From Caldicellulosiruptor naganoensis (lineage in GTDB: Bacteria; Bacillota; Thermoanaerobacteria; Caldicellulosiruptorales; Caldicellulosiruptoraceae), in the NCBI RefSeq assembly GCF_026914285.1, contig NZ_CP113864.1, positions 1,891,001-1,955,000 on the forward strand: a stretch of 64,000 nt of DNA. Direction: 5' to 3'. The notes beneath the pieces are model-generated. The model did not search any database, had not been told where the DNA came from, and saw nothing but the letters and a program-made list of their open reading frames with translations. A program made the translations under genes and the position numbers. Below, in pieces: positions 5,313 through 13,920 of this stretch. Position 1 is the first letter of the stretch, and every line of letters starts with the position of its first letter.

Positions 5313-6347
5313 CTATATCATATTTAGCAGTTCAACAATCTCCTCAGGGCTCATAACAAATTCAATTGCATCTATTTCAATAGCTGCCTTAGGCATCCCA
5401 AAGACCACACATGTCTTTTCGTTCTGCGCGATAGTAATTGCTCCCTTTTTTCTCATTTCCAATATACCATCACTTCCGTCAGAGCCCATGCCAGTCATAA
5501 TTATACCTATAGCATCTTTTTCACACGCCTCTGCAATTGAACTAAAAAGAATATCTGCTGAAGGTTTGTGGCTTTTTATTTTCTCAAGGTCAAGTACCCT
5601 TGTATAAAGTTTCCCCTGTCTTTCTTCTACAGCTAAGTGATATCCGCCCTTTGCAATGTATATACATCCTGGTTTTACTTCTTCATTGTCTTCTGCTTCT
5701 TTAATACATTTTGATGTTATAAATGCAAGCCTTTCTGCAAATGCTTTTGTGAAGTTTGGTGGCATATGCTGAACGACCAAGATTGGCAAAGGAAAGTCAC
5801 TTTTGAGGCTTTTGAACATCTTTTCTAAAACAGGTGGTCCACCAGTTGAAATCCCAATACCAACTACCTTAGCAGACTTCGCCCTTTCAATTAAGCTTTC
5901 TTCGAGCAAAATTTTTCTGCCTTTGATTTCTTCTAAGGTTTCTTTGCTCCGGATCTTTTTATACTCTTCACATGCAGCAGTTACCTTTTTAATCAGCTCA
6001 TACTTAAACTCTTTTATTTCATCTTCTCCAGAGGGTTTTAAAATATAATCAAATGCACCTGCTGAAAGTGCTTCAAAAGTGGTATGAGCACCAGGGTGCG
6101 TATATGCACTTATCATTAAAATTTTGCTGTCTGTAATTTCTTTTATTTTCTTTATAAGTTCAACACCGTTCATGTACGGCATTTCATAGTCAATAGTTAT
6201 CACATCGAATTTAAACTTTCTCACCCTGTCAAGGGCAATAAGAGGTGTCTGAGCAACCATTACAGAAAATCTTCCTGTCTGCTCTAAGATTGATTTGATG
6301 AGCTGTCTCATAAATGCTGAATCATCAACCACCAATACTTTATACAT
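5313..6347 (-). CDS. cheB: Chemotaxis response regulator / protein-glutamate methylesterase CheB
   Basis: 344-residue two-domain protein. Residues 1-120 are a receiver domain (KVLVVDDSAFM start, phospho-acceptor D53 in TIDYEMPYMNG). Residues 160-344 are the CheB methylesterase/deamidase with catalytic S167 (GISTGGPP), H194 (VQHMPPNFT) and D290 (MTGMGSDGSDG). CheB removes methyl groups from chemoreceptor glutamates in sensory adaptation. I start it at the ATG at 6345-6347, behind GGTGATGG; an upstream in-frame start would add 25 residues outside the receiver fold. It follows the glycerol-1-phosphate dehydrogenase closely and no other chemotaxis gene is nearby, so its partners must be encoded elsewhere. 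Confidence 0.95.
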   Translation of the reverse strand: MYKVLVVDDSAFMRQLIKSILEQTGRFSVMVAQTPLIALDRVRKFKFDVITIDYEMPYMNGVELIKKIKEITDSKILMISAYTHPGAHTTFEALSAGAFDYILKPSGEDEIKEFKYELIKKVTAACEEYKKIRSKETLEEIKGRKILLEESLIERAKSAKVVGIGISTGGPPVLEKMFKSLKSDFPLPILVVQHMPPNFTKAFAERLAFITSKCIKEAEDNEEVKPGCIYIAKGGYHLAVEERQGKLYTRVLDLEKIKSHKPSADILFSSIAEACEKDAIGIIMTGMGSDGSDGILEMRKKGAITIAQNEKTCVVFGMPKAAIEIDAIEFVMSPEEIVELLNMI

Positions 6348-6418
6348 AAATCCATCACCAAAAAATCGAAATCTCATTATTATTTTTTCCCTCTTCAAAA
6401 ACCTTAAAACAAAGTATT

Positions 6419-7640
6419 TCAAAAACTATTTACAACATCTTGTGTCAAACCTAAAAACTCATACAGATGTAAAATGGTAAATCTGTCTCTTATGTTTGGT
6501 GCGCAGGTAAAAGCTATAAAAAACAGTGCATCATCTATACCAAGATCTCTATAGTGCATTGGCATATCTAAGAATCTATATGCGTGGATTAAATCTTTAT
6601 AAATGGTAAGTGTCTCATAAATTATTTTATCTATTGAATCCTTCTTCTCAACAAGCTTTTTTATAAGTTCTTCTCTGAAAGTTTTATCATTCAGTCTGTT
6701 TACTCTTTCAAGATTTGCTCTAATTACACTTTCATAAGCAAATTTAAAATATCTTCTCATCAAATCTTGCCATGCGTCTATATCCAGAGTATAATGTATC
6801 ATTCCGAGAATTTCATCTTTACTCAAACTTAAAAAATGTTTATAAAATCTTAAGATATAAAGCGTCGCCAAGCCAACCTTTATGCCATGATAAGTTTTAA
6901 CACCATGATATTCTAAAAAATGTGAAATATGATGCTCACTTCCTGAAGCTGGTCTTGAAGATCCAACTTTTGTCATCATCAGACCAGAAATTATCAATCC
7001 TTCAAGAAGGTTTTTGGAAAATTCTTTGGTCTCAATCGCGTAAAGAGTCTTTAAATAGGTATTTTTTACAGTTTCCAGTACATCAAGGTCAATTTTTTCA
7101 CCTGTTAGAAAATGCGAAAGTTGCCAGTCGAGAAAAGCAGTAATCTTTCCCATCAAATCTCTAAAACCTGCTTTTTTTAAAGTTAAAGGAGCGTTATCTA
7201 TTACTTCATTATCAATAAATACAGCTTCAGGGGCTTTTGCTGCAACTGTTGTCTTTAAATTGTCAATTGTAAGTGCAGCACCAGAAGATGTAAAACCATC
7301 CATCGAAGGTGCTGTTGGAAACAAAATGAAAGGAATTTTTAGCTTATAGGCTGTATATCGTGTTATATCTGAGATTGTTCCACTTCCCACTCCAACGAAG
7401 AATATCATTGTTGCTTGTCTCAAACAATACCCTGCCAATTGCATATTCATCAGCAACTAAATTTTCACTATCAAAACATACTACCCTGCATTCAATCCCT
7501 GTATTTTTTATTAGTTTATGAATTTTATTTCCACAAACATTATATGTATTCTTATCACATATAATCAACGGAGATTTGTATGAATTTTTCTCTAAGTACT
7601 CTAAAAGTTCTTCATAAGGATTCTCCCAAAAAATTTTCAT
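6419..7640 (-). pseudogene. sn-glycerol-1-phosphate dehydrogenase (AraM/EgsA family), frameshifted
   Basis: Two overlapping reading frames together make one AraM-type dehydrogenase. The N-terminal frame starts at the ATG at 7638-7640, behind AAAGGA, and gives the first 80 residues up to ...ETSNNDI. The second frame resumes at GVGSGTISDITRY, the nucleotide-binding motif, and runs to 6419. The switch needs one base skipped near 7398-7402, in the context GAT-ATT-CTT-C-GTT. The metal-site region (ASGSEHHISHF) is intact. Family members reduce dihydroxyacetone phosphate to sn-glycerol-1-phosphate, the archaeal-type lipid backbone, also made by some Bacilli. With one lesion only, this may be recent inactivation, a sequence error or +1 recoding. 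Confidence 0.82.
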
Positions 7641-7748: not shown

Positions 7749-9668
7749 CTATTCTATCGCCTTTGTTTCAACTTTTTCTCTAACTAACTTAATAAACTCC
7801 TCAATAGTAAAAGCCCCTAAATCACCTTTCCTCCTATCTCTCACTGCTATCGTATTATTTTTTTGTTCTTTTTCACCAACAATCACCATATATGGTATTT
7901 TTTGTAATTGGGCATCTCTTATTTTATATCCTACAGTTTCTGATCTGTAGTCTTCTTCAACTCTGAATCCATTTTCCTTTAGTGTTTGGGATATTTTTGC
8001 TGCATAATCATTGAAATTATCAGATACTGGTATTACTCTTATTTGAGTTGGTGCTAACCATACCGGAAATGCACCAGCAAAGTGTTCAGTAAGTATTGCA
8101 ATAAACCTCTCTATACTGCCAAAGACAACTCTGTGTAACATTACCGGCCTATGTTTTGCACCATCTTCACCTATATAATATAAGTCAAACCTTTCTGGCA
8201 TTTGAAAATCAAGTTGAATTGTTGCACACTGCCATGTTCTTTTCAAACTATCTTCAAGATGAAAATCAATTTTGGGTCCATAAAAAGCTCCGTCACCTTC
8301 ATTTATTTTGTAATTTATACCTACTTCCTCTAAAGCTTCTTTAAGGGCAGTTTCAGCCATATTCCATTGCTCATCTGTTCCCATTGAATTTTCGGGCCTT
8401 GTTGAAAGTTCAACATGATATTTGAAACCAAACACACTATAAAAATAGTCAATAAGCTCAATTACACCTTTTATTTCATCTTTTATCTGTGAAGGTAACA
8501 TGAATATATGAGCATCGTCTTGTGTAAAGCATCTTACTCTCATAAGACCATGCAATACACCAGATAGCTCATACCTGTGAACAAGCCCAAGTTCACACAA
8601 ACGCTGAGGAAGTTCCCTATATGAATGTTGCTTTCTCTTATACACCAATATACTACCTGGACAGTTCATAGGCTTTATTGCAAATTCCTGATCATCTATT
8701 TTGGTAAAATACATATTTTCTTTATAATGATCCCAATGTCCTGACTGAATCCAAAGGTCTTTTGTCAACATTATAGGAGTTTTTATTTCCTGATAACCTC
8801 TTTTTTTATGTTCCTCTCTCCAAAAATCCTCTAATATGTTCCTTATAATCATCCCTTTTGGCAAAAAGAAAGGAAATCCTGGTCCTTCGTCAAATATGTC
8901 AAATAAATCAAGTTCTCTTCCAAGCTTTCTATGATCTCTTTTCTTTGCTTCTTCAAGCATTGAAAGGTGTTCATCAAGTTGCGATTTTTTCTCGTATGAT
9001 ACTCCATAAACTCTTTGAAGCATCTTATTTTTAGAATTTCCGCGCCAATACGCACCTGCCACAGAAAGTAGTTTGAATGCCCTCACTCTCCCTGTTGAAG
9101 GAAGATGGGGTCCTGTGCAAAGGTCAACAAATTCACCTTGCCTGTAAAAAGATATAGTTTCATCCTCTGGAATGTCATTTATAAGCTCAACTTTATAATT
9201 TTCTCCCCTCTCCTGCATAAACTTGATTGCCTCATCTCTTGTGAGTTCAAATCTTTCAATCTTTAAGTCTTCTTTTATTATTTTTTGCATCTCTTCCTCA
9301 ATCTTTCCCAAAAGCTCCATTGTAATAGACTCGTCAACATCAAAGTCATAATAAAAACCATTGTCAATAGCAGGTCCAATACCAAGCTTGACTTTGTCAC
9401 CAAAAATCCTTTTGACTGCCTGGGCTAAGATGTGTGAAGTTGTGTGCCAGTACACTTTTTTTCCTTCATCGCTTGAAAATGTAATGACTTCAAAACTACA
9501 ATCCTCATCCAGCTTTGTCCACAAATCTTTTAAAATTCCATTTATCTTGCACGCCACTGCCTCTTTGTAAAGTTTCATGCTAATCGATTTTACTAAATCT
9601 AAAGCACAAGTCGACTTTTCAACTTCAATTACTTTACCATCCGGAAGAGTAACTTTTACTTTTTCCAT
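7749..9668 (-). CDS. thrS: Threonyl-tRNA synthetase
   Basis: 639-residue class II synthetase charging tRNA-Thr. Domains in order: N-terminal TGS domain (VTLPDGKVIEV), editing domain with HTTSHILAQ and the CTGPHLP segment, the catalytic core with zinc-binding KPMNCPG and motif 2 (RCFTQDDAHIF), motif 3 (VVFGSIERFIA), and a C-terminal anticodon-binding domain. I start at the ATG at 9666-9668; an AGGAGG site lies about 12 bases upstream. An in-frame TTG at 9695 lacks a good site. It follows the TPR/HTH gene by 42 bases, leaving no room for a T-box, so any such control would have to sit upstream of the operon. Confidence 0.97.
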   Translation of the reverse strand: MEKVKVTLPDGKVIEVEKSTCALDLVKSISMKLYKEAVACKINGILKDLWTKLDEDCSFEVITFSSDEGKKVYWHTTSHILAQAVKRIFGDKVKLGIGPAIDNGFYYDFDVDESITMELLGKIEEEMQKIIKEDLKIERFELTRDEAIKFMQERGENYKVELINDIPEDETISFYRQGEFVDLCTGPHLPSTGRVRAFKLLSVAGAYWRGNSKNKMLQRVYGVSYEKKSQLDEHLSMLEEAKKRDHRKLGRELDLFDIFDEGPGFPFFLPKGMIIRNILEDFWREEHKKRGYQEIKTPIMLTKDLWIQSGHWDHYKENMYFTKIDDQEFAIKPMNCPGSILVYKRKQHSYRELPQRLCELGLVHRYELSGVLHGLMRVRCFTQDDAHIFMLPSQIKDEIKGVIELIDYFYSVFGFKYHVELSTRPENSMGTDEQWNMAETALKEALEEVGINYKINEGDGAFYGPKIDFHLEDSLKRTWQCATIQLDFQMPERFDLYYIGEDGAKHRPVMLHRVVFGSIERFIAILTEHFAGAFPVWLAPTQIRVIPVSDNFNDYAAKISQTLKENGFRVEEDYRSETVGYKIRDAQLQKIPYMVIVGEKEQKNNTIAVRDRRKGDLGAFTIEEFIKLVREKVETKAIE

Positions 9669-9710: not shown

Positions 9711-11096
9711 TTATACATCTTCTCCTAATAAAAGTCCCTTGAATTCCTTAAACCATCTTGAGAAAACTGTCTGAGAAATACCAAAATGTCCTGCTATATC
9801 TTTCTGATTTACTTTTTGCCCGCAAAGGTATTTTTTGTACACGTAATAGACAACTGCCGCAATTGCAGCAAGGTTTAGTCTTTTTCTCTCAAGCGGAAGA
9901 GTACTTAGAAGTCTATAAACGTCATTTTTCTCCTTATCATTTAACTTTACATTTTTGGTTATAATATCCACTATTTTGTTTGCATTTTCTTCAAATGTCT
10001 GAGAAAAGTACAAGTCAATGTGTTTTTGAAGTTGTTTTCTAAACTCTTTTTCTTCGGATAGTGATATAGCTTCACTACCTGTTTCAAAATAGTCTATTGT
10101 GTCCTTTTTAAAGGTCTTTATCACATTATCAACTTTCTTTAGAAAGTAGTCAATCTTTATCTCAGGCATATTATAACTTCTTTTCAGCTCTTGCCATATC
10201 TTTTTGGCTTTTATATACTGCCGTGTATTGTACAAACTGATAGCCTGGATATGCTTAAAATAAGGCTCTTTTGTAATTTCAAAAAGCTCTGCTGCCCTCT
10301 CAGCAATTGCAGCATGTTGGTTTAATTTTATCAATGTGTCTAACACTTTAATCTTGTCTTTATAGTCGTACGTCTTAAGGTCCAATATTGTTTTCAGCTG
10401 TTTTCTAAGCTCTTTTGTTTTGCCAATTGTGCTGTAAAAAAATGCTAAATTGCAATTTGCATACACATTGTATTTATCAACTTCTAAAACCTTTTTTGCT
10501 TCCTGTATTGCTTTTTCAATCTCCCCCATATAAAAATAAGCAAGTGACAAATTATTTCTTGCAGCAAAGATTGTATCGTCTTTGGACAATATCATCTTAA
10601 AATATTTTACAGCATCTTCATATCGACCATTTTCTAAAAGAAAATTACCTCTTTCTAAAAGTTTTGTAAGTTTCTCCATCTCTCTTTGTTCTTTTTCAAA
10701 TTCCTGTTGAGTCTCTATAAAGTCAAGGAGGTCCTCTGCTGCTTCCTTAAATTCCTTGTTATTGCTAAGTTGAAGGTACCTTTTTAAAAAATGTTTTGCT
10801 TCTTTTAGCTTGCCCATCTCAAAGAAATTACAACCAAGTCCAAAAAGTGAATCGTAAAACTCAGGATTGTCTTGAGCAAGTTCTTGCAAAAGCCTATTTG
10901 AATTTTCAAAGTCTCCCACCTGGGCTAAAAGTCCTGCCAAGTTGAATTTTATCTCAATATTCTTACTATCAAGCTCAAGCGCTCTTTTCAGCCTTTCAAT
11001 GGCAAGATCTATCTCACCTTTTTCATAATGTTTAATTCCTATCCTAAAAAACCTTGATGATGTAGGATGCAAATTCACAACCTTACCTTTCACCAT
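9711..11096 (-). CDS. TPR-repeat protein with C-terminal cyclin/TFIIB-like helix-turn-helix
   Basis: 461-residue soluble protein with no signal peptide. Residues 15-330 are tetratricopeptide helices (for example a YEKGEIDLAIERLKRALELD unit) in two blocks joined by a charged coiled segment around 120-150. Residues 400-461 form a different domain: LNLAAIAAVVYYVYKKYL, then QKDIAGHFGISQTVFSRWFKEF, which reads as a helix-turn-helix and resembles the last helices of a TFIIB cyclin repeat. Function unknown; I infer a DNA-binding or sigma-interacting regulator that senses a partner through its TPRs. It sits between the AlbA_2 regulator and thrS, probably in one operon. Intact. Confidence 0.75.
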   Translation of the reverse strand: MVKGKVVNLHPTSSRFFRIGIKHYEKGEIDLAIERLKRALELDSKNIEIKFNLAGLLAQVGDFENSNRLLQELAQDNPEFYDSLFGLGCNFFEMGKLKEAKHFLKRYLQLSNNKEFKEAAEDLLDFIETQQEFEKEQREMEKLTKLLERGNFLLENGRYEDAVKYFKMILSKDDTIFAARNNLSLAYFYMGEIEKAIQEAKKVLEVDKYNVYANCNLAFFYSTIGKTKELRKQLKTILDLKTYDYKDKIKVLDTLIKLNQHAAIAERAAELFEITKEPYFKHIQAISLYNTRQYIKAKKIWQELKRSYNMPEIKIDYFLKKVDNVIKTFKKDTIDYFETGSEAISLSEEKEFRKQLQKHIDLYFSQTFEENANKIVDIITKNVKLNDKEKNDVYRLLSTLPLERKRLNLAAIAAVVYYVYKKYLCGQKVNQKDIAGHFGISQTVFSRWFKEFKGLLLGEDV

Positions 11097-11115: not shown

Positions 11116-12240
11116 TTACAGTTTATCTATTGGCGGTAAGATAATCTTAAAGGTGTTCTGAGAATTTATATTTATTATCTTTGCAGAAGGATAAGTCTTT
11201 TTAATTCTTCTAAGACCTTTACCGCCTCTTAAGAATAGATTATGTTCGTCCAAAACTATCATCTTTTGGTAAATCCAAGGATTCCGCCTTCGGGGTATAA
11301 TCTCCCTTCCCATATTATAAACCATATTACCCTCTAAAAGACACCCTGGGTTCACAATTTCTATAAATTTCTCACTAATTTTGACAGCTGCTGCCCTTGT
11401 TATATCATAATAGTCTCTGTGTACAAGAGCATTTGCCACAGCCTCAAACAGTGCCCATAAATTCTTTCGAGGATATTTACTCGTGAGATCACTTATCACT
11501 GCATTTATTATACTATATATGTTACCACAAATAATTCGGTTGTGGTCAAAAAATTCAAAAATCAAATAAGCAGAAGGTATAAAACGCTCTGGGCACTTAC
11601 CAAAGACAAGCATTCCAGCCATAGTAGGATAAAAATTTCCGTTTTCTCTGTCTCTTTGAATAATTCCAAAACTCTCGAGTAAAATTGGATTGTCCCACTC
11701 AGAAGCAATTCCGCTTTTTTTAAAAAATAAGTTTATCAAATCCGGATCAAAGTCAGAAATATTTGCATTTCTTATAATTGTCATTTCAAAGTTGACAATA
11801 CCACTTTCTCCAAACATAGAAGCAATCTCTTCTCGTTTTGCAACATCTGTTGTAGATCCACGTCTTATATAAAACACTCCATTTTGGACCATTTGATGGG
11901 GGCGCAAACTGCTTTTGTAAATAGTAAGAATTCCTAATTTTTTACTTTCATACTCCACAATCTCAAACTTAATTGAAACAGGCGGGTCACATCTGCTTGA
12001 GATTGTCTGCTGAATTTTCTCCTCGGTAATATTGTCATCGTTTATTCCAACAATTCTTTTGGTTTTGTCTTCAACACCAAAGATGATATATCCTCTGCCA
12101 CCTCTTGAATTTGCAATAGCAATTACATCCTTTACAAGTTCCTTTTTTTCACTTTCTGTTTCTAAAGAAAGCTTACTTTTAAAATCAAGTTTAGGTCCTT
12201 CATCAGACTCAAGTAATGCTTTAAGTTTGTACTTGTCCAT
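11116..12240 (-). CDS. AlbA_2/Schlafen-type ATP-binding transcriptional regulator
   Basis: 374 residues. The N-terminal 130 residues are an AlbA_2 (divergent AAA-4, Schlafen-like) domain: E-x-x-x-LDFKSKLS, then IANSRGGRGYIIFGV and FYIRRGSTT, all typical. The C-terminal 180 residues contain the GHKL-like segment ALFEAVANALVHRDY and the NPGCLLEGN motif of RecG-C-terminal-like ATPases. Such proteins are usually annotated as putative transcriptional regulators; the target is unknown. It lies 11 bases after the HD-GYP gene and 19 before the TPR gene. Intact, although its upstream neighbour is broken. Confidence 0.85.
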   Translation of the reverse strand: MDKYKLKALLESDEGPKLDFKSKLSLETESEKKELVKDVIAIANSRGGRGYIIFGVEDKTKRIVGINDDNITEEKIQQTISSRCDPPVSIKFEIVEYESKKLGILTIYKSSLRPHQMVQNGVFYIRRGSTTDVAKREEIASMFGESGIVNFEMTIIRNANISDFDPDLINLFFKKSGIASEWDNPILLESFGIIQRDRENGNFYPTMAGMLVFGKCPERFIPSAYLIFEFFDHNRIICGNIYSIINAVISDLTSKYPRKNLWALFEAVANALVHRDYYDITRAAAVKISEKFIEIVNPGCLLEGNMVYNMGREIIPRRRNPWIYQKMIVLDEHNLFLRGGKGLRRIKKTYPSAKIININSQNTFKIILPPIDKL

Positions 12241-12251
12241 CTATCTTCATC

Positions 12252-13887
12252 TCAACATTTAAATTTTTTTTCCTCTTCTAAAACCTCTAAGAAAGCCTCA
12301 AATATCTCAGGGTCAAATTTTTTCCCCACATCTTCTTTCATTATCTTAAGTGCTTCCTCTTCAGAAAAGGCTTTTCTGTAGGGTCTGTCAGTTGAAAGTG
12401 CATCAAATACATCCGCTATTGCTATTATTTTGGACTCTATAGGAATTTTATCTCCTTTTATACCAAGTGGATAGCCACTTCCATCAATATTCTCATGGTG
12501 ATATAGAACAATCTCTTTTATACTATCAAAGTATTCAATATTTGAAAGAATGTTATAACCATCTAATGAATGCCTTTTGACAATAGAATATTCCTCATCA
12601 GTGAGCTTTCCTCTTTTGTTGAGAATATTTTCTGGCACTACAATTTTACCAATGTCGTGTAGGTATGCAGCTATTTCTAAATCAAATAAATTTATGTTAT
12701 ATCCTTTTTGATTGACAAGTTTTTGCCCAATCTCTTTACTGTACTTCATCACCCTTTCAGCATGTCCTTTTGTATATGGGTCTTTCATTTCAATTAAAGA
12801 TATAAGAAGTTTAATTGCTCCTTCAAAATTCCTCTTCTCTTTTTCAAAAAGTTCTCTTAAAAGCTCATCCTGCTTCTGCAAAATTGAAATTCTGTTTTTT
12901 ATTTCATTTGAAAAATAAGTGAGTATTACCTCTACATTTTCGAATTTTCCTTCTCTTTTTATAGCTGGTTTTGGAACTGTAGCTTTACCGTTTATTGTCG
13001 AAAACAGTTTTATTGCATATTCTTCAAGTTTAAGTATTTTCCTTGTCAAATATACTCCACTTGCAAATGATATAAACAAAGTTAGATGTGTTAACAGAAT
13101 AAAAATGATTAACAAAAGTTTTTCAAAACGTCTTTTTATCATAACAAGAGGCTTTTCGTCATGGTCTACAACTATACTGCCAAGAAAGTTATTATTTGTA
13201 TCGTATATGACAAGTTCGTTTCTGACTAACTTATTTGTGTGACTCAAAATTCCTTTAGGTTGAAAATAGGCCTTATTTACAACAAAAGGCTGAATTAAAG
13301 AGACAAACTCTTTTATCTCTCTTGCCAAAAAAAGAGCTCCAATTACTGGCTTGTTTAAATCTTTGTTATCTAAAACAGGAGAGCAAACAAAAGCATAGAC
13401 TCTCTCATTAAATTTCAAAAAACCTTTTTCAACAGGTATTAAATTGATATCATTATAACCATACTTTTTGTTTATTGTCTTTTGTACAACTTCAAACAAG
13501 TTTTCAGTAATTATATCCCTGAGAGGTTGATACCTTGAATACGATGCAATAATACCTCTCTTTTTGTAAAAACCAACAATAATTGAAAAGTCATATGGTT
13601 TTTGGCTTAACCAATTTGTCCAGTAAAACTCAATTGTTGTGAAATCATCGTTTAGAACTGCCTGGTAAATCTCATTCCAGATAGAATAGTCCTTTGCTAT
13701 GATTGTCATGTCATCAAATACTTTTTGTGTTATCCTCTCTAACGATTTTTTTGTTGATTTATGAAATAGTCATAAGTTATTTTCTCATACTGAGGTATTA
13801 CGTTTGTCATAACATACGCAGCCACAATTGACGAGGGTAAAATGCTATTAAGATTGTTACAATAAGTATTTTAATCCTTAGTTCCAC
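12252..13887 (-). pseudogene. CHASE4-like sensor / HD-GYP cyclic-di-GMP phosphodiesterase, two frameshifts
   Basis: The long frame (12252-13709) encodes an extracytoplasmic CHASE4-like segment, a membrane helix near 195-215 and a C-terminal HD-GYP domain (AAYLHDIGKI, HHENIDGSGYPLG). It starts too late for a sensor because the N-terminus is split over two more frames. A GTG at 13885-13887 behind GGATGTGG begins VELRIKILIVTILIA, the missing first membrane helix; a one-base deletion in a T4 run (13839-13842) shifts to LPSSIVAAYVMTN; a second one-base deletion in an A7 run (13746-13752) joins the main frame at KSLERITQKVFDD. HD-GYP enzymes hydrolyse cyclic-di-GMP. The truncated remainder could still be made from an internal start, but its topology would be altered. 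Confidence 0.8.
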
Positions 13888-13920
13888 TTTGCCACATCCT
13901 CTATTTTAAGCTTTGCCTTT

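Follow-up and report, generated by a model that had tools for sequence, protein, structure and literature searches.

A TPR protein of the bacterium Caldicellulosiruptor naganoensis ends in a five-helix domain that very probably adopts the cyclin-repeat fold of TFIIB. TFIIB-type cyclin repeats are viewed as belonging to the transcription of archaea and eukaryotes. The gene was found in a window of 64,000 nucleotides (contig NZ_CP113864.1, positions 1,891,001 to 1,955,000), which is the whole stretch of DNA analysed here, and the tail of its product represents a divergent form of a widespread bacterial domain. We regard it as an evenly poised proposition that a genuine homolog of the TFIIB cyclin-like repeat, in its complete five-helix form, was retained or gained early by bacteria and serves there as a DNA-binding module outside the sigma factors; as the tail of TPR, SEC-C and other proteins it would be present in a fifth or more of the Bacillota species genomes.

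Such a domain bears on the relationship of bacterial sigma factors to TFIIB. The helix-turn-helix (HTH) units of sigma factors have been proposed to be simplified descendants of the five-helix TFB repeat (PMC8131849), and a widespread bacterial five-helix domain would provide concrete material (structure, DNA sites and tree) to test this model. Moreover, DUF6398 and the YvcD-type TPR proteins, named and unexplained for two decades, would gain a fold and a testable function.

The Gene and Its Conservation

The gene spans positions 9711..11096 of the window and encodes a protein of 461 amino acids; the coordinates given in the preliminary description are exact, and the strand is the minus strand. 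The open reading frame starts with ATG, preceded by a ribosome-binding-like GAGGAG, and is present in one copy in the complete 2.49-Mb genome of the host. Full-length orthologs occur in 12/12 genomes of the genus (71-85% identity in the 11 others) and, at 44% identity, in the sister genus. Within the genus, dN/dS amounts to 0.07 for the whole gene and to 0.05 and 0.10 for the TPR part and the HTH, respectively. Since the full length is kept in both genera and dN/dS is low, the reading frame is not a product of chance, and purifying selection acts over the entire gene, including the tail. The latter (residues 380-461) evolves faster than the TPR part (dN/dS 0.17 versus 0.05), and therefore the TPR part may outweigh the tail in importance. 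The product contains only three cysteines, at positions 89, 215 and 425, and is best explained as a soluble cytoplasmic TPR protein.

Pfam TPR models far exceed their cut-off across residues ~15-240 (10377..11054, minus strand), and the nearest solved sequences of this array are designed consensus TPRs and OGT. Residues 241-330 (10107..10376, minus strand) form a conserved continuation of the repeat region, with a fraction of 0.62 of the residues invariant in the genus and a dN/dS of 0.04, and are devoid of strong TPR model matches. Thus, of the 330-residue TPR array proposed earlier, the family models bear out the portion up to about residue 240.

Predicted Structure of the Tail

The AlphaFold model of the tail has a pLDDT of 92.5 and comprises five helices, formed by residues 346-382, 387-397, 409-424, 431-437 and 442-457. 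The cyclin-repeat (TFIIB-like) domain delineated by the model, Foldseek searches and profile comparisons covers residues ~369-457 (9726..9992, minus strand). Its predicted helix 3, LAAIAAVVYYVYKKYL, corresponds to residues 409-424 (9825..9872, minus strand), and helices 4 and 5 form a predicted HTH (residues 431-457; 9726..9806, minus strand), whose recognition helix is presumably helix 5. Both peptides on which the likeness to TFIIB had originally been based are present in the protein, where LNLAAIAAVVYYVYKKYL occupies residues 407-424 and QKDIAGHFGISQTVFSRWF residues 431-449.

Upon searching the window tail against all PDB entries with Foldseek, ranks 1-7 were all taken by TFIIB or Brf (probability 0.89-1.00, TM 0.48-0.61), while sigma region 4 appeared only at ranks 36 and 47 with a probability of ~0.3. 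The E-values of these matches are weak (0.33 and worse) and the TM scores do not exceed 0.61, and hence the structure matches of the window tail, taken alone, are suggestive. The strongest fold figures belong to relatives rather than to the window's own tail. The model of a canonical relative, L043, is a cyclin repeat with a pLDDT of 93.5 and helices at residues 4-17, 24-40, 50-64, 71-78 and 82-96, reaches a TM of up to 0.82 (to Brf2), and its ranks 1-49 in the PDB are occupied exclusively by TFIIB, Brf, cyclin or Orc6, at probabilities of 0.91-1.00. The fold of Orc6 is TFIIB-like. Cyclin C and Ccl1 are also among the structural matches to the tail domain.

The preliminary description had likened the C-terminal 62 residues to the last helices of a TFIIB cyclin repeat, and had named a best match to an ordinary HTH, such as sigma region 4, as the outcome that would speak against it. 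The resemblance to TFIIB and cyclins is supported by the predicted structure, with TFIIB and Brf at the top and sigma region 4 far lower, and independently by the sequence profiles described below; its extent has to be widened to the entire five-helix repeat.

Profile Evidence for a Relationship with TFIIB

As single queries, members of the window's genus did not reveal the relationship: the window protein scores below the reporting level against the Pfam TFIIB model (PF00382), a same-genus C-terminus retrieved nothing useful from the PDB, where family profiles did match, and a survey of the window protein with Pfam and NCBIfam yielded TPR and sub-threshold HTH matches only. Many generic HTH models, Sigma70_r4 among them, match the tail weakly in Pfam. 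An alignment of 53 members of the bacterial tail domain, from which the window's genus was excluded (profile A5), was compared with 177,635 PDB sequences, and the eight best matches were all TFIIB (9.9e-9 to 3.3e-6), followed by the first unrelated match at 0.012. Smaller alignments gave the identical order of matches. Both TFIIB repeats align in register with the bacterial profile, and the similarity is significant over ~89 columns. TrpR and Mu transposase, considered as nearest relatives of the tail, are far weaker matches than TFIIB.

A direct comparison by hhalign employed a reference of 20 TFIIB repeats, derived from eight archaeal plasmid genes and from archaeal and human PDB sequences. 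The bacterial family matched this reference with a probability of 95.9 (E 2.6e-9), and the window-type C-termini alone, without bacterial intermediates, with a probability of 64.5 (E 8.4e-6); the corresponding probabilities for sigma region 4 were 0.5 and 0.4, respectively. The real hhalign scores of 50.1 and 30.8 compare with 10.4 and 14.1 for the best of 100 column-shuffled decoys. Conversely, PF00382 produced five matches at 0.01 in 299 Bacillota genomes: the top one, and the sole one above the curated cut-off, is the L043 protein, and the second-best (in G080) is likewise a member of the tail domain. Because of these profile scores, common ancestry with the TFIIB repeat, as opposed to convergence, is quite likely.

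Distribution and Architectures of the Tail Domain

Full-length relatives outside the genus align with the window protein in both the TPR part and the tail, and some of them carry a cleaner version of the latter, with the pattern WAAALEY ... TQKELAEKYGVSxSSVSxxYxxI. In most relatives, few stretches of the tail are as well conserved as the HTH motif TQKE.A..Y.VS.S.VS. Window-type tails are joined to the family by hhalign probabilities of 94.7-96.6, and the tail of the window protein thus falls, by profile alignment, within a bacterial domain family as one of its divergent members.

With one of the cleaner domains as query, matches were obtained in 41/299 Bacillota genomes. Profile A5 extends this count to at least 66/299 genomes and 50/214 genera, which is a lower bound, as most copies in the window's own genus escape A5, which detects one ortholog there (at 2.6e-5). 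The profile search proposed earlier to establish the phyletic range hence reveals a domain that is widespread in Bacillota, the phylum surveyed. Its three main settings are TPR arrays, proteins with SEC-C zinc motifs and another protein of ~570 amino acids. In the SEC-C proteins (L045-L048, L053, L055, L058 and L064) the TFIIB-like domain is mostly C-terminal and the zinc motif is found at the opposite end. Several genomes of the window's genus also contain short ORFs of 116-156 amino acids that weakly match the tail profile (1e-4 to 1e-3; e.g., G003:C1:2246999-2247226 and G006:C1:266945-267169) and are possibly stand-alone relatives. No relative of the tail domain was found in phages, and plasmids gave two weak matches, one of which is labelled DUF6398 in Microvirga.

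To follow the complete architecture, named genomes were scanned with a full-length alignment of 12 proteins that can be aligned end to end (A4). The scan returned 443 relatives, and the best 80 of these stem mostly from Paenibacillus, Alicyclobacillus, Cohnella and Tumebacillus. An HMM identified the tail in 77 of the best 80, and in one more in a shifted frame; in the remaining two (L117 and L160) the tail is strongly diverged and the TPR part remains. In a Bacillaceae-like genome (L089) the gene for the TPR protein with tail adjoins trxB, as does yvcD in Bacillus subtilis. From this and the sequence comparisons the window gene apparently belongs to the YvcD-type TPR family; the one observation that points to B. 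subtilis YvcD itself is the trxB-adjacent position in L089. According to PMC1482698, YvcD is a TPR protein of Firmicutes and “might interact with nucleic acids”; its function is recorded as unknown (PMC12245174).

Literature searches covering few subscription journals found no paper on DUF6398 and none linking the TFIIB fold to a bacterial protein as is done here. The assertion that the design corresponds to no described family therefore holds in so far as a likeness to TFIIB is stated nowhere in the literature found; the combination of TPR array and tail as such occurs across Bacillales and other Bacillota, apparently under the name of YvcD, and is a named but unexplained family rather than a one-off.

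Genomic Context

In the genus, the genes are arranged as HD-GYP, Schlafen, TPR and thrS and are separated by short gaps. The threonyl-tRNA synthetase gene thrS (7749..9668, minus strand) is co-directional, lies 42 bp downstream and has its own GGAGGAG ribosome-binding site; it is kept as a neighbour throughout the genus and in the sister genus. The other conserved neighbour, 19 bp upstream, encodes a Schlafen AlbA_2 protein with a RecG-C-like domain (11116..12240, minus strand; Pfam SLFN_AlbA_2, 7.4e-26). Further upstream, a putative c-di-GMP phosphodiesterase with CHASE4 and HD-GYP domains was assigned by Pfam and same-genus orthologs (12252..13709, minus strand). The 5' part of this gene is frameshifted: the start region that matches orthologs of 554-571 amino acids is present at 13709-13890 (minus strand), but relative to them its frame is broken and the gene lacks the N-terminal membrane segment. 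The cause is either a frameshift of recent origin or an error in sequencing. At the locus L071 of G007 an inserted TnpB-like transposon ORF of 492 amino acids (5551-7029) separates the TPR gene from thrS, and an HD-GYP gene is absent.

Elsewhere the surroundings differ. The order prs-TPR-trxB, with both neighbours present, is found at 41/78 Bacillales loci and is common in Paenibacillus and Alicyclobacillus. In eight Bacillota genomes (L079-L082, L084, L085, L087 and L088) the gene adjoins an exoribonuclease gene with OB and HD domains, which we take from sequence knowledge to be that of the 3'-5' exonuclease YhaM. No common genomic partner across lineages points to a target.

As for operon control, Rfam gave no hit in the interval separating the TPR gene from thrS, and no T-box or other RNA leader was detected in the window. 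In G012, the sister genus, the two genes are separated by a T-box leader (L074, 5429-5609), with an Rfam E-value of 1.3e-9, a score below the gathering threshold and the hallmark motif present. An alignment of the region upstream of the HD-GYP gene, inspected by eye, displayed a conserved promoter-like sequence and no evident shared inverted repeat or operator. A promoter scan found 30 promoter-like sites versus 26.9 expected from shuffles, and hence no excess; of the terminator-like sites (six, versus 3.1 expected), none falls between this gene and thrS.

Proposed Function and Alternative Explanations

The best explanation, which we guardedly consider probable, is that the protein is a TPR-gated DNA-binding regulator with a TFIIB-type repeat. 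Its HTH would bind duplex DNA in the manner of TFIIB repeats, a proposal based on the analogy with TFB, the conservation of the HTH and the basic character of the tail (15 K/R versus 8 D/E). From what is generally known about TPR domains, the TPR superhelix may bind another protein or a peptide, and this partner would control where or when the tail binds. The protein would then act in trans as a transcriptional or nucleoid regulator. Among the components of this scheme, nucleic-acid binding is fairly probable; a role as transcription regulator in the narrow sense is put forward tentatively.

The preliminary description had instead suggested that the protein may regulate its own operon, thrS included. 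The order Schlafen-TPR-thrS, preserved in the sister genus and at those loci of the genus that were examined, and the short gaps suggestive of co-transcription would fit such an autoregulator. However, the gene adjoins prs and trxB in Bacillales and YhaM elsewhere, the T-box of the sister genus gives thrS in that genus a control of its own, and no conserved operator was evident by eye. Given the varying neighbours and the T-box, a dedicated role on thrS is unlikely and the conserved function should be exerted in trans; autoregulation of the local operon is a decidedly improbable explanation. The view that the tail is an ordinary bacterial HTH, akin to sigma region 4 or similar and TFIIB-like only as all HTHs are, fares even worse. 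HTH families resemble each other, the weak Pfam matches to Sigma70_r4 and many other HTH models are in line with this view, and so is the published derivation of sigma HTH units from TFB repeats; yet the hhalign probabilities and Foldseek ranks of sigma region 4 are low, and the TFIIB matches cover all five helices and both TFIIB repeats, which renders an ordinary HTH very improbable.

Two further explanations, both unlikely, concern what the domain contacts. The tail might act on RNA or the ribosome instead of promoters, making the TPR protein a post-transcriptional or ribosome-associated adaptor. Neighbours linked to RNA or translation in several lineages (thrS in the genus, YhaM in eight genomes) are compatible with such a role, as is the presence of the same tail at the end of SEC-C proteins; SEC-C zinc motifs occur in SecA and YecA. 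But the nearest known relatives by fold bind duplex DNA, and the neighbours, which vary by lineage, include trxB and prs without a link to RNA. Alternatively, the cyclin fold might serve protein contacts only, like that of cyclins; the HTH would then be an architectural remnant and the protein a scaffold. The structural matches to Cyclin C and Ccl1, the lower conservation of the tail relative to the TPR part within the genus, and its strong divergence in L117 and L160 with the TPR part remaining would all agree with a scaffold, whereas the HTH motif belongs to the best conserved portions of the tail in most relatives and is its most constrained part within the genus.

Comparison with Known Systems

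Within the YvcD family, the window gene stands apart by its Schlafen/thrS context, a shorter linker and a diverged tail. DUF6398 (PF19935) appears from sequence comparisons to be a branch of the tail domain superfamily, because relatives of the window protein reach its cut-off: the SEC-C protein L064/L094 scores 27.8-30.7 bits against a cut-off of 27.2, while other relatives attain 22 bits and the window protein itself gives no match at the gathering threshold. Typical DUF6398 proteins are short (~150 amino acids) and without TPRs, in contrast to the window protein with its TPR array.

The combination of a TPR array and an HTH in one bacterial regulator is shared with the RRNPP regulators (PlcR, NprR, Rgg and PrgX), in which an XRE-type HTH precedes the TPRs. 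The HTH of the window protein is C-terminal and of a different fold, and an RRNPP identity is ruled out by its location at the opposite end. Region 4 of sigma70 also is an HTH, but a simplified one instead of a five-helix domain, and shows no profile similarity to the window domain.

The closest likeness is to the repeats of TFIIB/TFB (PF00382; PDB 1ais and 5wh1) and of Brf1/Brf2, which have in common with the tail a five-helix repeat whose last three helices comprise an HTH. Published structures of TFB reveal a typical DNA-binding HTH in the final three helices of each of its five-helix repeats (PMC8131849). As a whole protein, TFIIB/TFB combines an N-terminal zinc ribbon with two tandem repeats, whereas the window protein has no zinc ribbon (its three cysteines are scattered), begins with TPRs and is not itself a TFIIB: it carries a single repeat, C-terminal, behind a TPR array and in a bacterial host.
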